Assembly: GCF_000025005.1 (NCBI RefSeq)
Contig: NC_013526.1
Coordinates: forward strand, 310,001-374,000
DNA length: 64,000 nucleotides
Direction: 5' to 3'
From: Thermobaculum terrenum ATCC BAA-798
GTDB taxonomy: Bacteria; Chloroflexota; Chloroflexia; Thermobaculales; Thermobaculaceae
Shown: piece by piece, positions 14,830 to 21,928 of the stretch
How the letters are laid out: every line of letters begins with the position of its first letter
How positions within the stretch are numbered: the first letter of the stretch is position 1
Translations under genes and position numbers: made by a program
Notes under the pieces: generated by a model
Told to the model about the DNA's origin: nothing
What the model saw: the letters and a program-made list of their open reading frames with translations, nothing else
Database searches by the model: none

Positions 14830-16231
14830 CTATACTATGGTATCTAGCTCTTTGCTTGCGTATGGGGCAAAGGAGCTGAGGAATCTAATCGGTCTTGGAG
14901 GTAACGAATCATAACTACTTGCGTCTTTCAATTCCCTAAACAAAGCAATTAGTTTCTCTACTGTGTGGTCGATCAGGAAATAAGCTAGTGCCCTAGCCCG
15001 TGCGGATCTCCCTAGGCGTCTTCTAAGCTTCTCGTCTTCTATGAGCATACCTAGGTAATGTGCTAGTTGATCCGTATCTACTGCGACGTTGTCTGAGAAA
15101 GGAGGTGTAGCCACGCATGACGAACATCTCTTCCATGCTTTCAGCTTGAGGGGCATTCCAATAAGTGTCTACAAGAAAGCCATCTACGCCATCCCTTACG
15201 ATCTCGCGATATCCAGACCAAGAAGTGCAAACTATGGGAACTGCGTGGAGCATAGCTTCCACTATGGAGAGTCCAAAGGATTCAGATATGGTGTTTGATG
15301 GGGATACGAATATATCGCAACCACTAAGCAGGAGGTTTTTCTCCACATCAGATATATTCGGGCGGATCTCAAGTAGGTCTAGGAGACCATAATTGGTAGC
15401 ACTAAGCCACAAAGGCTTCACATCGGTAGAGCTTGCATATCCGGCTAGCAACAGCTTAAACATCTTGCCCTGAGCCTTCAACTTCGCACTGGCCTCGAAT
15501 AGGCTATTGAAATCAGCCTTGTCCCAGCTACATAGTCGTCCCAAGAATACTATGACGGGAGTCTCATCCCACATTAATGATGCGCGTGCAATCCTTTTTG
15601 GTATGGGGTGTACGCAAGGGACACCATAATGGATTACATGTACATTGGGTGGAGGCGTGTCGATACCAATGAGGGATGAAATATTATTCCAATGGCTTAG
15701 GAATACCTTCTTTACAGCGTTGCTTGGAGCTATTATCGTATCCGTTGGCTGACGAAGAGCAGCTAAAGAGGCTATGAATGCTGGCAACTGGTTGGGATAG
15801 CCGATGCCGTGTACCAAGGTTACTATAGGAAACGTCTTACCGAAGGATGCTCTTAGCATGGCTGGCTTCCAAAGGTGAGGTTTTGCTGGTTCGAACCAGA
15901 TCACGTCTTGGGTGTCCAACCAACGGCTTAGGCTAGTGAAAGCTAAAGAGGTTGTCCCTGGTATACCTGACTGCTCAATTCCTACCACTGCGAACTCGTT
16001 GACATTTGGATGGCATGCCATCCTCTCGCATAACTACTTGGTCAGAAGCAACCTACCATGGATGGGCACATGATAATTGCCTACACTCGTAAGTTGCTCA
16101 GGCAGAAGGTCCTCAAATAAGAATGTGCCGATCCTTATACCATGTTTTGGGTCTGGATGACGGGGAGGTACGTCTCCATTATCTATACCATTTGGCCTGC
16201 ATTTTGAACATCTCCGCATAGTATCCACCAA
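14830..16231 (-). pseudogene. Family 4-like glycosyltransferase, broken by a stop codon and a frameshift
   Basis: Three pieces read as one protein. The N-terminal piece (from 16231) gives RIGTFLFEDLLPEQL...HGRLLLTK and meets TAG at 16034-16036. The same frame then continues with LCERMACHPNVNEF through the GT-B body, including VFLGRL, LLLAGY and the donor-binding SPSNTISESFGLSIVEAM...GYREIVRDGVDGFLVDTYW. Near 15092-15108 the frame must shift by one base to SDNVAVDTDQLAHYLGML...RRRLGRSARARALAYF, a normal GT4 C-terminus that ends at 14830. The start overlaps the end of the ABC exporter gene. It would have been a tailoring enzyme of the RiPP cluster; two sequencing errors are the alternative explanation. 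Confidence 0.75.
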
Positions 16232-18044
16232 GAGCTAAGAGTTGTGAGTGATCGCCCTGTTCCACAACCGTACCATTTACAAGCACTACTATGTGATCTG
16301 CCATCCTAACAGTACTTAATCTATGACTTATGATAATTGCAGTATGGCCTTCGAACAGTTTGCGAAAGCGATCGAACAATTCTCTCTCGGCTTGTGCATC
16401 CAGGGCTGCGGTCGGTTCATCGAGGATCACTAGCTGGGCATCACGTACAAAAGCCCTAGCTAGCGCGATCTTCTGCCATTCCCCTCCCGATAGGTCAGTA
16501 TCACCTAACTCGCGCCCCAGGCGTGTGTATATCCATTTGGGGAGTTTTGCTGTTAGTTTATATGCATCAGCTTTCTGTAAGGCCAGCAGCAATCGATCTT
16601 GATCCTCCATCCTACTGATATCTGCGATAGCTACGTTTTCCTTGATGGTAAACTCATAGCGAACAAAGTCTTGGAATATAGCCGCTATCCTGCTTCTTAG
16701 ATCATCTAGATCGTAATCCTTTAGGTCCACCCCATCCAAGAGTATTCGACCCTCCTGTGGGTCGTAAAACCGCAGGAGCAGTTTGACTATCGTGGTCTTG
16801 CCCGCGCCATTTGGTCCCACTAGCGCCAGTACCTGGTCTGGTTCCCAAGTGAATGAGATGCCTTTCAAAACAGGACTGTTGTTGCCTGGATAGGTAAACC
16901 ATACGTCCTGGAACTCGATTCCCCTCTCGATGGTGTGGGGTACGCATCGATGGGTTTGCGCCTGCTGTAGATCCGCTGGCACGTCAAGGAGCTTGAACAA
17001 GCTTGGTAGAAAGATGACGGACTTTGGTATCTGGCCCAAGATCGCGCTCAATTCCAGTAGTCTGGATTGCATCAACATAGCTGCACCACCGTACAACACC
17101 AAGTCTCCTACTGGGGACAGGTTTTGAGCCAAATTCCATATAAGGTACATATATACCCCGGCAATGCCCGCGGCTGAAACGGCTGAGGCTAGGGACAGCC
17201 TTAGAGAGAGCCCCCTGCGTATTTTGTCTAGCTGTCCTAGTGTGTGCTCAAAGCTGCTGGCGTATCTGAACTGAAAGTAAGGCCAAAGCCAATATGAACG
17301 AACGTCCTTTGCCGCCTCTGGAGTTAGTTGAGTTCTCTTCCAGTAACCAAGCTTGCGGGATTCTGATGTCTGTGTATACAGATGTCTAGTGGTGCTAGTG
17401 CCATATCTCCACTGAGCTAGCATTTGGGGCAGTGCAGTTGCTAACACCAGCAAAAGTGCCAGAGGGTGGAGATGCGCCAGTGTTGCAGCCAGCCCTATCA
17501 TGGTACACAGGTTGACGAAGACGCCAGTGCTCACCGTTAGTATCTCCAGGCCGCTCTGAGGAGCGTACCTACGAACACGCTCCCAGTCGTCGGCTATCTG
17601 TGGGTCCTCGAAATGCGAGAGTCCAGGCCATTTGCTGGTAGCCAGTAACAGTTTTCTGTTGACCTGACCGGTAACGCGATCTGCCAGTATGCTCCTCAGG
17701 GTATCATTCAGTGGCACTAGAACCTGACCTAAGGTAATTATCAAGACTGCTATCAGTATGAGGTATCTCAGGCTGGGTGACCAAAAATGACTACTTGAGT
17801 GGTGGCCGGATAAGTTAGTGACTATCCTGTCGATAACCAGCTTGGAGGCTACTAGCTCGGCCGTTGGTAGGATGGCTTGTAGAATGCTCGTCAACAATAT
17901 ACCTACTGTTAGGCTTGGGTTGGTGCGCCAAACCAGCCCAATAGCCCGGCTACACAGCCATAAGAAGTTGCGAGTACTTTTGACTAAAGAGCTCTTTGAG
18001 TGCATAGCTTCCCTCAGCAGATGACTGCGGGTTACTGTTCTCAC
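16179..18044 (-). CDS. ABC exporter, fused membrane and ATPase domains (RiPP cluster)
   Basis: 621 aa. A six-span membrane domain (about 45-345) precedes an ATPase domain (about 375-615) with Walker A GPNGAGKT, Q-loop IFQDFVRYEFTIKENV, signature LSGGEWQKIALARA, Walker B LVILDEPTAALD and H-loop IISHRLSTV. There is no N-terminal C39 peptidase, so it does not cleave a leader. It starts with GTG overlapping the methyltransferase stop (GTGA). Full length and without visible lesions, unlike two of its neighbours. It would export the modified peptide. Confidence 0.87.
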   Translation of the reverse strand: MRTVTRSHLLREAMHSKSSLVKSTRNFLWLCSRAIGLVWRTNPSLTVGILLTSILQAILPTAELVASKLVIDRIVTNLSGHHSSSHFWSPSLRYLILIAVLIITLGQVLVPLNDTLRSILADRVTGQVNRKLLLATSKWPGLSHFEDPQIADDWERVRRYAPQSGLEILTVSTGVFVNLCTMIGLAATLAHLHPLALLLVLATALPQMLAQWRYGTSTTRHLYTQTSESRKLGYWKRTQLTPEAAKDVRSYWLWPYFQFRYASSFEHTLGQLDKIRRGLSLRLSLASAVSAAGIAGVYMYLIWNLAQNLSPVGDLVLYGGAAMLMQSRLLELSAILGQIPKSVIFLPSLFKLLDVPADLQQAQTHRCVPHTIERGIEFQDVWFTYPGNNSPVLKGISFTWEPDQVLALVGPNGAGKTTIVKLLLRFYDPQEGRILLDGVDLKDYDLDDLRSRIAAIFQDFVRYEFTIKENVAIADISRMEDQDRLLLALQKADAYKLTAKLPKWIYTRLGRELGDTDLSGGEWQKIALARAFVRDAQLVILDEPTAALDAQAERELFDRFRKLFEGHTAIIISHRLSTVRMADHIVVLVNGTVVEQGDHSQLLALGGYYAEMFKMQAKWYR

Positions 18045-18928
18045 TTGATAGCGGTGAGGTAAATACCTCCACCACGTATCTTTCCTTGCCCACTCTCGAC
18101 TAAGGGCAAAAAGTGAGCTGTAAGCTGTTGAATCTCAGATTCGGTCAGGGCAACCTGCATAGCCTCTAGTATACTGGGGACCTTCGGATTCTGTGCACGT
18201 CTTATATAGGTATCCCAACTAATCGGTCTAGCCTGTGATATGCTCACATGCAGGTCGGCATAGATCTCTTCAAAGCCGACTGCAAGAGCGTGAGAGATCA
18301 GCTCGCGCTCATCGATCTCTAAGACCTGCACAAGTGGGTTGCTTAGCTGATCGTAAGCAGCCCTTACCTTACTTACCAAGTGACTTACATTTCCTACCTC
18401 ATACTCATCGAAGGGCTGCCTTCCTTCCATGAATCCTAGACGACTTACCGGCTCGAACAAAGATAAACGTGCCCCTGGCTTAAGTACCCTGTGAATTTCC
18501 TCAAATACATTCACTCTATTGGTGACAAAGATCAATACAGCTCGGATCACAACTGCATCTATAGAGTCGCTCTCTATCTCGGTCAGTTTTGTTGCCGAGG
18601 CTTGTATGAAACGGCATCTATCGATTACCTGTTCTTGAGTCGCCTTTTGTCTACAATAGTCTAATAACGCTTTTGAAGTGTCATTAAAGATTACTATCCC
18701 CTGTTTGCCAACTCTTTCAAGAGCTCCGAAGGCTAGAAGGCCGGTGCCAGTACCTATGTCTAAGACGGTATCTCCAGGGGCAATAAAGGCATTGGCAAGC
18801 ACTTGCTCTCGTACTTGATTAGGTGAACTCTCAATCTTGACGAATTCATCAAGGTCGTTACCATATCTTCTGCAAAGTAACCACTCTGCAAAAGGATCAG
18901 AATAAGATTTTGTCGTTGACATTGCCAC
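18041..18928 (-). CDS. SAM-dependent methyltransferase of the RiPP cluster
   Basis: 295 aa. Motif I VLDIGTGTGLLAFG (about 54-67), FNDTSKALLDYC, and IDAVVIRAVLIFVTN define a class I fold; the C-terminal half has family-specific sequence (FEPVSRLGFMEGRQPFDEYEVGN). Peptide-modifying methyltransferases often accompany ATP-grasp peptide ligases; whether this one acts on the peptide's carboxylates, a side chain or a sugar is unknown. The GTG at 18926-18928 has GAGG 5 bases upstream; ATG at 18922 is a close alternative. It is 19 bases past the ATP-grasp stop and overlaps the exporter start, so one operon. Confidence 0.82.
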   Translation of the reverse strand: MAMSTTKSYSDPFAEWLLCRRYGNDLDEFVKIESSPNQVREQVLANAFIAPGDTVLDIGTGTGLLAFGALERVGKQGIVIFNDTSKALLDYCRQKATQEQVIDRCRFIQASATKLTEIESDSIDAVVIRAVLIFVTNRVNVFEEIHRVLKPGARLSLFEPVSRLGFMEGRQPFDEYEVGNVSHLVSKVRAAYDQLSNPLVQVLEIDERELISHALAVGFEEIYADLHVSISQARPISWDTYIRRAQNPKVPSILEAMQVALTESEIQQLTAHFLPLVESGQGKIRGGGIYLTAIK

Positions 18929-18947
18929 AGATACCTCAGGAGCGAAT

Positions 18948-19907
18948 TTAATAACTACGGGGTGTGGCCGTGGCTGCCAAGGCTCTGGCTATGGATCTAG
19001 CGATCGGCAACCCTGTGTGCTCCTGTAGCCATCCCCAAGCTCCCATGGGATTCACCTCCAGGAAGACGTACGTACCATCAGTTCGAACTAGCAGTCTTGG
19101 CTCCATAATTTAGCCCTAATATCAACGTAAATTGCTTTATTGTATTGGCTATGATACTGGCACCTGGTGGACTTGATACTTCGCCAATCTCTTGTTTGTG
19201 TAGAATAACCTAACTTATCCCCAGGAGAGTGTATCTCGATTCCATAAATCTGCATATAGCTGTGGCACATATTCTTGAAACATGGTGCTGCATGGCACGC
19301 AAGAGTCGAGATTTTGCAGATCCTCCTTGCTGACTAGAGTAGTGTAAGGTGCCCTGAGCATCACACCAGGGCGAGGGTTCGAATCAATATGAAAGCTCTT
19401 ACATACTACCTGTCCACCGAAATGCCGATAAAACTCTTTGAGCTCATAAGGGTTGTTCGATATTATAGTCGCCGGTATAGTTAGGCCTACTGAAGAGGCA
19501 ATATGAAGTTGATAAGGCTTATAGCTAGCTCTTAGTCCAGCATCTGGGTGATTCATCCATACGATAGGCTCTATAGACCTGAGTATTCCTCCCACGCATT
19601 CTGCACATTCAGCCTTTGCGTATCGTATGACATCTTTGTGAAGCTTGTCTCCGAAGTTGAAGTCACTTACATGACCATTCCAAATACCTGTGACCGTACC
19701 TAAGTCTATTTGCCTGCCTGCGTATGTTAGCAGGACACTCCATGTCCTGCTAGAAGTAATGTGGCAGTCTATCTTGCTTTCCAGGGGAAAGGCAGATAAG
19801 TCATAAACAAAGTGATCAACACCGAGGGCATCGAGCTCAGATGCCACCCAATGCATAGCTGCGTCTGCAGACTGTGTCAACAGCATTACGAGAGCAGAGA
19901 GGCTCAT
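18948..19907 (-). pseudogene. MvdD/TgmB-like ATP-grasp peptide ligase, three frameshifts
   Basis: The 960-base span would encode about 319 aa, the family length. Frame 1 (19907 to about 19265) gives the N-terminal and central domains (ASELDALGVDHFVYDLSAFP, WMNHPDAGLRASYKPYQL, FQEYVPQLYADL). The next frame gives YGIEIHSPGDKLGYSTQTRDWRS (about 19260-19160). A third gives ANTIKQFTLILGLNYGA (about 19150-19097). The first frame then returns with LLVRTDGTYVFLEVNP and GAWGWLQEHTGLPIARSIARALA, the Mg-ATP site and C-terminus, to TAA at 18948-18950. Each shift skips one base, so all three are in the same sense. Such ligases form ester or amide crosslinks between Ser/Thr/Lys and Asp/Glu. As written it cannot make a full enzyme. 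Confidence 0.82.
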
Positions 19908-19989: not shown

Positions 19990-20301
19990 CTAAGAGTCCT
20001 CATAGCTTTCCTTGTCTTTCTTTGTATCGTCGCCCCATCCTCCAGTCCAGGTGCCACTAATGCTGGCATAGGGGTTGGCCGCAACATAGGAGTCTTGATC
20101 CACTGTGGGAAGAGTTAGCGTAAATGGTAGAGCGGACTTATCTACGGCCTCCAAGTCTACCACCTCTATCTCTCCCTGCGTTAGTATCTGCCATGACAGG
20201 TCTCTTGGAAGTCCAGATAAAACCAGACGTACATGCTCCTTATCTTCTGTCATCAAAGCATCTAGTAAAACCTCGAGCTTTTGGTCTTGCTTGCCAAACA
20301 T
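19990..20301 (-). CDS. Candidate graspetide-type RiPP precursor peptide
   Basis: 103 aa. Residues about 1-50 look like a helical leader (MFGKQDQKLEVLLDALMTED...). A motif ALPFTLTLP (about 57-65) recalls the hydrophobic PFF-type recognition segment of ATP-grasp precursors. The last 22 residues, GGWGDDTKKDKESYEDS at the end, are packed with Asp/Glu next to Thr, Ser and Lys, the donor and acceptor set needed for omega-ester or omega-amide crosslinks. AAAGGAGG lies upstream of the ATG. It is first in the operon and followed by a strong hairpin. I know no close family, so 'precursor' is inferred from position, size and core composition. Confidence 0.65.
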   Translation of the reverse strand: MFGKQDQKLEVLLDALMTEDKEHVRLVLSGLPRDLSWQILTQGEIEVVDLEAVDKSALPFTLTLPTVDQDSYVAANPYASISGTWTGGWGDDTKKDKESYEDS

Positions 20302-20561: not shown

Positions 20562-20598
20562 AATTTGGCCGAACCCAAATATATCGCTGGAGGGAAGC

Positions 20599-20871
20599 AT
20601 GCACGAGAAGTTGCCGTTCAGGATCGAGTACTGCACCTCTTGAGGGTACCTCAAGCGAGCCGCCGGTCTGGCGGAGCAGGTGCTGCACGACTTCCACCCG
20701 GGCATCAAGGAGCTGGTGCTGGTGCCGTCCTCGGGTGGGGTGTTTGAGGTGAGCCTCGGCGACGAGCTGCTGTTCTCAAAGAGGCAGGAGGGGAGGTTCC
20801 CGGAGCCCGAGGAGATACTGCGGGTGCTGGAGACCCGAGGCGTCAAGAAGGTGCCCCCGAAGCAGGAGTGA
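20599..20871 (+). CDS. SelW/Rdx-family selenoprotein with in-frame UGA
   Basis: 90 aa if TGA at 20641-20643 is read as selenocysteine. The frame gives MHEKLPFRIEYCTS-U-GYLKRAAGLAEQVL, then KELVLVPSSGGVFEVSLGDELLFSKRQEGRFPEPEEIL and TGA at 20869-20871. The Rdx (SelT/SelW/SelH) thioredoxin-like fold has a CxxC or CxxU redox motif after the first strand; here it is C12-T-S-U15, with Sec exactly where the catalytic residue belongs, and GGVFEV and FPEPEE are standard family motifs. Translation as stop would leave 14 residues. GGAGGG lies 4 bases before the ATG. A hairpin with GGUCU loop follows the UGA at the right distance. Selenocysteine insertion genes are not in this window. Confidence 0.87.
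20655..20677 (+). promoter_or_regulatory. bSECIS-like hairpin (selenocysteine insertion element)
   Basis: CCGCC (20660-20664) and GGCGG (20670-20674) close a five-base loop GGUCU (20665-20669), with GC/GC pairing below across a small internal loop. The loop starts 22 bases after the UGA, within the known spacing. GGUCU is the apical sequence of the Escherichia coli fdhF SECIS as I remember it, recognised by SelB. Confidence 0.75.
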
Positions 20872-21025: not shown

Positions 21026-21928
21026 ATGTCCTTGGTGCCGGATAGCCTTGTGAGGGTCATGCAGGACCTGCACGGCGACGCGGGCAGGCAGTGGGTCGAG
21101 AGCTTGCCGGCGATCCTGTGGGAGCTGTCGAGTCGCTGGGGGGTGGAGGTTGGCGCTCCCTTCCCCGAGCTATCGTATAACTTCGTCTGCGAGGCCGTGC
21201 TGCCCGATGGACAGCCCGCGGTGATAAAGCTGGGGCACCCACGCGACGAGGCCTTCTGGCACGAAGCCGAGGCGCTGCGGGCCTTCGACGGCCGGGGGGT
21301 GGTGCGGCTGCTGGCGGAGGCCAGGGATCTGACGGCGATGCTGATCGAGAGGGCGCTTCCCGGAGCAAGCCTGCTCAGCCTGGGGGATGACGAGGCCATG
21401 ACCGAGGTAGCCGCCCGGCTCCTGCGGGACCTGCATGTGCCTCCTCCGGATGCCCACCGCTTCCCCACCCTTGCCGATTGGGGGCAGGGCATGCGCAGGC
21501 TGAGGGAGCGCTACGGAGGGTCCAGCGGGCCCTTCCCTCCCCGGCTCTTGGAGGCAGCGGAGGCTTGTTGGCGGGAGCTGCTCGCGTCACAAGTAAGGCC
21601 GATGCTGCTCCATGGCGATTGCCATCACTACAACATCCTGTCCACGGAGGGGGGCTGGGTGATCATAGATCCCAAGGGGGTGGTGGGCGATCCCGCGTAC
21701 GAGGTGGCGCCCTTCATGCTCAACCCCGCAGACGTGGCGCGCAGCCCCAGGAGGGTGTTCGAGCGCAGGCTGGATATCATCTGCGACCTGACGGATCTGG
21801 ACAGGCAGAGGATCGTCCGCTGGACGGTGGCCCACAGCATCCTCTCGGCGTGGTGGGGGGTGGAGGACCACGGCGAACCCTGGACGGATGCGCTGGCAGT
21901 GGGCGAGATCTTCTGCTCGATGCTCTAG
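21026..21928 (+). CDS. Aminoglycoside/streptomycin 6-kinase-like phosphotransferase
   Basis: 300 aa. The APH(6)-like layout is visible: ATP-binding Lys in QPAVIKLGHP (about 67), catalytic HGDCHHYNIL (about 193-202) and the metal-binding Asp in WVIIDPKGVVGDPAYEVAPFM, close to the streptomycin 6-kinase IDPKGxxGDPAyD signature. Such enzymes inactivate streptomycin-type aminoglycosides, but environmental homologues often act on other small molecules, so resistance is not established. The ATG at 21026 is chosen for its GAGGAGGT site. It converges with the GT2 gene. Confidence 0.82.
   Translation: MSLVPDSLVRVMQDLHGDAGRQWVESLPAILWELSSRWGVEVGAPFPELSYNFVCEAVLPDGQPAVIKLGHPRDEAFWHEAEALRAFDGRGVVRLLAEARDLTAMLIERALPGASLLSLGDDEAMTEVAARLLRDLHVPPPDAHRFPTLADWGQGMRRLRERYGGSSGPFPPRLLEAAEACWRELLASQVRPMLLHGDCHHYNILSTEGGWVIIDPKGVVGDPAYEVAPFMLNPADVARSPRRVFERRLDIICDLTDLDRQRIVRWTVAHSILSAWWGVEDHGEPWTDALAVGEIFCSML

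Follow-up and report, generated by a model that had tools for sequence, protein, structure and literature searches.

An in-frame UGA that is almost certainly a selenocysteine codon in a SelW/Rdx gene of Thermobaculum terrenum

The selW locus and its neighbours

The window analysed is a stretch of 64,000 nucleotides from Thermobaculum terrenum ATCC BAA-798 (NC_013526.1, positions 310,001 to 374,000 of the forward strand), and all window coordinates below count from its first base. The window, and with it the gene described here, is located on chromosome 2. The assembly is composed of 3,101,581 bases in two contigs, and the replicons of T. terrenum YNP1 are given as 2,026,947 bases for chromosome 1 and 1,074,634 bases for chromosome 2 (PMC3035366). 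Within the window, a frame of the Rdx/SelW family runs from an ATG at 20599 to a terminal TGA at 20869-20871 (90 residues plus stop) and is interrupted solely by a TGA at 20641-20643, where the CxxC/CxxU motif has its second redox residue. The features of the locus are as follows.

20589..20593, + strand: Shine-Dalgarno-like GGAGG, five bases 5' of the ATG (from the sequence)
20599..20871, + strand: selW/Rdx gene, with predicted Sec as residue 15 (PF10262, E 6.4e-23; TIGR02174 above cut-off)
20632..20643, + strand: CxxU active-site motif Cys-Thr-Ser-Sec, TGC ACC TCT TGA (from the sequence and the Sec/Cys column in homologues)
20641..20643, + strand: UGA codon with predicted Sec decoding (from the same TGA in relatives, the Sec/Cys column and co-occurrence with SelA)
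20660..20674, + strand: bacterial SECIS apical hairpin CCGCC-GGUCU-GGCGG, loop 20665-20669, conserved G 20666 (from folding and comparative tests)

With TGA written as U, the translation reads MHEKLPFRIEYCTSUGYLKRAAGLAEQVLHDFHPGIKELVLVPSSGGVFEVSLGDELLFSKRQEGRFPEPEEILRVLETRGVKKVPPKQE; the motif CTSU forms residues 12-15, near the N-terminus, and the residues around the internal TGA are MHEKLPFRIEYCTS-U-GYLKRA. A sequence-only reading of this DNA had described a frame broken by this TGA alone, in YCTS-U-GYLKRA, with a good ribosome site, and had foreseen that annotation would truncate the gene. The coordinates and the motif proved exact, the GGAGG is found before the ATG, and without recoding the open reading frame listing offers as its longest downstream frame only 63 residues from a GTG at 20680, in which the active site is missing.

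Regarding family membership, the PF10262 (Rdx) profile matches residues 8-77, that is, across the TGA, with 81.2 bits against a cut-off of 22.6, and the TIGR02174 profile (CXXU_selWTH) scores 68.4 bits against 34.2. The stricter Campylobacterota equivalog NF041051 is narrowly missed (81.2 against a cut-off of 88). Among known structures, 3dex matches residues 8-80 (E 9e-16) and mouse SelW, 2npb, also matches (E 2e-4). Cys-type Rdx proteins have solved structures (3dex, 2fa8), and 3dex has Cys where T. terrenum SelW would have Sec. The nearest relatives found are approximately 58-62% identical. Substitution counts on the two sides of the UGA, compared with near relatives, carried no information, owing to the high divergence of the sequences and the shortness of the segment 5' of the codon. 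By family, SelW is a predicted thioredoxin-like redox protein, and from known biology its role would be in thiol/selenol redox reactions.

Upstream of selW, on the reverse strand, the window contains an ATP-grasp peptide maturase of the MvdC/MvdD-like type (18929-19907), whose first two thirds match TIGR04187 and which appears broken, as several in-frame stops precede the C-terminal motif DGTYVFLEVNPMGAWGW. This remnant is adjoined by a 103-residue frame with an acidic tail at its end (19990-20301, reverse strand), which may be the precursor of a graspetide, a peptide modified by an ATP-grasp enzyme. Beside it are a methyltransferase (18041-18928), an ABC exporter (16179-18044) and a glycosyltransferase (15023-16021). 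Downstream of selW, on the forward strand, 21026-21928 encodes a homologue of APH(6)-type aminoglycoside/hydroxyurea kinases (PF04655, E 2e-42) that scores far under the threshold set by NCBIfam for resistance enzymes of the APH(6)-I type and is probably an ordinary kinase relative.

Sec machinery and conservation of the codon

The genome contains selA, selB and selC, the genes whose absence the sequence-only reading had named as grounds for rejecting its claim, and also selD. The tRNA-Sec scores 71 bits against a cut-off of 47 and is called tRNA-SeC with anticodon UCA by ARAGORN; SelA (E 2e-132) and SelD (E 2e-109) are clear matches, and SelB scores 346 bits across a frame of 643 residues. 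The selD gene itself has an in-frame TGA, in SCAG-U-AAK (SCAGUAAK). Counting selD, T. terrenum has at least four further genes in which a TGA interrupts the frame at a catalytic Cys/Sec position; the others are a pair of formate dehydrogenase genes and one for a protein disulfide oxidoreductase:

L070:94-3450, - strand: formate dehydrogenase alpha, TGA in NQARI-U-HSS (NQARIUHSS), GGUCU-loop hairpin after the UGA
L071:1036 onward, + strand: formate dehydrogenase alpha, TGA in NQARI-U-HSS (NQARIUHSS), GGUCU-loop hairpin after the UGA
Chromosome 2 (C2):915495-915542; L088:1051-1734: protein disulfide oxidoreductase, TGA in TTPT-U-PYC (blind SECIS-model match, TIGR02187)

The first of the two formate dehydrogenase genes passes the NCBIfam formate dehydrogenase cut-off, and the GGUCU loop is common to selW and both of these genes. 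The oxidoreductase was picked up when 31 SelW SECIS regions were made into a covariance model, with which the T. terrenum genome was then searched. The top match was selW, as expected since the model included it, and the second (E 0.2) was a TIGR02187 protein (265 bits) with an in-frame UGA in its TUPYC site. The third match (E 0.7) was rejected as a chance match, its frame having no UGA there. Searches of the genome for AhpD-like and for AhpC/peroxiredoxin proteins gave no additional gene with an in-frame TGA. UGA is also the ordinary terminator of selW and of other genes in the genome.

An Rdx gene is present in 186 of 400 Chloroflexota genomes. Among the matches listed, from which the weakest were left out, 94 of the 400 genomes have an Rdx copy whose frame holds a single internal TGA, and in 44 every copy is of the sense-codon kind. 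A strong SelA match accompanies the TGA copy in 93 of these 94 genomes; of the 44 with sense codons only, 31 have one and 13 do not (Fisher p 9e-7). The lone TGA genome without a strong SelA is 77% complete. The column of residue 15 has Sec or Cys in 43 of 43 homologous loci examined, a result that is partly by construction, as the loci were chosen by the pattern C..[CU]; the survey of TGA in 400 genomes is independent of this choice. The same codon is TGA in loci outside the Chloroflexota as well. The closest relative, from the same family, has CTS-U-GY and a stem-loop, GCCGCCGGUCUGGCGGA, identical to that of T. terrenum. Near relatives thus have TGA or Cys at this site, and the pattern that was to count against Sec decoding, another sense codon accompanied by lesions elsewhere, is not what they show.

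The hairpin downstream of the UGA

The stem is formed by pairing of 20660-20664 with 20670-20674 (CCGCC/GGCGG), so that the hairpin occupies bases 17-31 past the UGA. It lies just 3' of the codon and its small apical loop contains a G. The sequence-only reading had placed the start of the stem-loop 22 bases after the UGA; this holds for the apical GGUCU loop, whereas the stem starts at 17. The hairpin search followed rules that imitated those of bSECISearch, and an Rfam scan of the window from 19 to 22 kb returned nothing above threshold. Folded as a single sequence, the hairpin is not unusual (z from +0.6 to -1.0), and all five pairs are kept in approximately 21% of synonymous recodings of the T. 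terrenum SelW peptide.

The comparison with relatives is more informative. Across 31 distinct Sec homologues, the five stem pairs are 93.5% standard, and double-sided changes are found in four of the five (C-G to G-C; G-C to A-U and U-A; C-G to U-A). Stem covariation is 0.375 versus 0.148 in column shuffles (none of 500 reaches 0.375) and at most 0.084 with slid partners, values to be read with the kinship of the sequences in mind, the shuffle counts not being probabilities. The loop G, at position 23 after the UGA, is present without exception in the 36 Sec genes. The conserved position of the TGA, the compensatory stem changes and the invariant loop G together indicate that the hairpin is more than chance. 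Sec genes keep 4.67 of the five pairs, whereas synonymous recoding leaves 3.64 on average and 4.03 at most, and the pairing has therefore been selected beyond the needs of the protein. In eight Cys homologues only 2.0 of the five pairs are kept and the hairpin is largely missing.

The element resembles a bacterial SECIS of the fdhF type, which likewise lies within the gene, close behind the UGA, and has a short GC stem and a five-base GGUCU loop; it differs in spacing and stem sequence, which follow the SelW coding sequence. GGUCU is the loop of the E. coli fdhF element. The local residues that follow Sec (A-A-G-L-A, A-V-S-L-T, A-T-R-A-V) may be dictated by the coding SECIS in SelW-type genes, as a stem at a fixed position and an invariant loop G limit the choice and the Cys lineages are without the stem; we give this proposal an even chance of being right. 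The hairpin that follows the terminal UGA at 20869 has only the three bases AAC in its loop, without a G, in keeping with that codon acting as a normal stop.

Decoding of the UGA and significance

The recurrent TGA in relatives, the Sec machinery and the covarying SECIS hairpin argue that TGA 20641-20643 is almost certainly a selenocysteine codon, as the sequence-only reading had proposed, and not the mark of a pseudogene. If a nonsense change had disabled a Cys-type Rdx gene, this would explain a TGA that is one base away from TGC or TGT, as well as the shortened frame from GTG 20680 that gene callers would give. However, the same codon is TGA in 93 other Chloroflexota genomes among the matches listed and in loci beyond the phylum, no second lesion accompanies it, the Rdx match runs to the end of the gene, and neither the SECIS covariation nor the complete Sec machinery would be expected of such a remnant, which makes the pseudogene highly improbable.

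Insertion of another amino acid at residue 15, Trp or Cys through suppression or a changed code, is less probable still. UGA read-through exists elsewhere but nothing specific favours it here, where UGA also terminates genes, the in-frame UGA genes found belong to known Sec families with the codon at the catalytic position, and both Sec machinery and SECIS are in place. The least probable arrangement is one in which a leader peptide of 14 residues is made and translation restarts at GTG 20680 to give a separate product: the open reading frame listing does offer that 63-residue frame, but its product would have neither the CxxU site nor the N-terminal portion of the fold, and conservation is unbroken across the UGA.

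We therefore return to selW as a SelW/Rdx redox protein with a CxxU site, in which Sec is put in at the UGA via SECIS, SelB and Sec-tRNA(Sec), with a probability of about 0.97. Insertion at residue 15 would follow the established bacterial pathway. SelA would make Sec-tRNA(Sec) from Ser-tRNA(Sec) and selenophosphate supplied by SelD, the SECIS hairpin would recruit SelB carrying Sec-tRNA(Sec), and Sec would enter in place of termination; the terminal UGA, lacking a loop-G hairpin, would act as an ordinary stop.

The description of SelW-like CxxU selenoproteins and their bacterial SECIS elements dates from 2005 (PMC1088965), and a count across bacteria followed in 2006 (PMC1794560). In 2008 they were found to be one of the most widespread kinds of selenoprotein in the sea (PMC2398784), and PF10262 CxxU is listed in a 2022 review (PMC9312934). 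T. terrenum selW is an ordinary member of this bacterial selenoprotein family known since about 2005. The domain (PF10262; TIGR02174), the CxxU, the Sec position and the coding-region SECIS are all alike, with no difference of kind, and what differs is the host, a thermophilic aerobic Chloroflexota. General knowledge of selenocysteine is left unchanged. The literature search found no paper on selW of T. terrenum, and the genome paper, which describes an obligate aerobe, does not mention selenocysteine (PMC3035366). The result is relevant for annotation, as gene callers tend to shorten or skip such genes, and in Epsilonproteobacteria genome annotation is reported to have overlooked SelW genes wholly (PMC4607533). 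For T. terrenum itself, the gain is a Sec-type SelW, which would bring to at least five the selenoprotein genes of a thermophile listed as an obligate aerobe.
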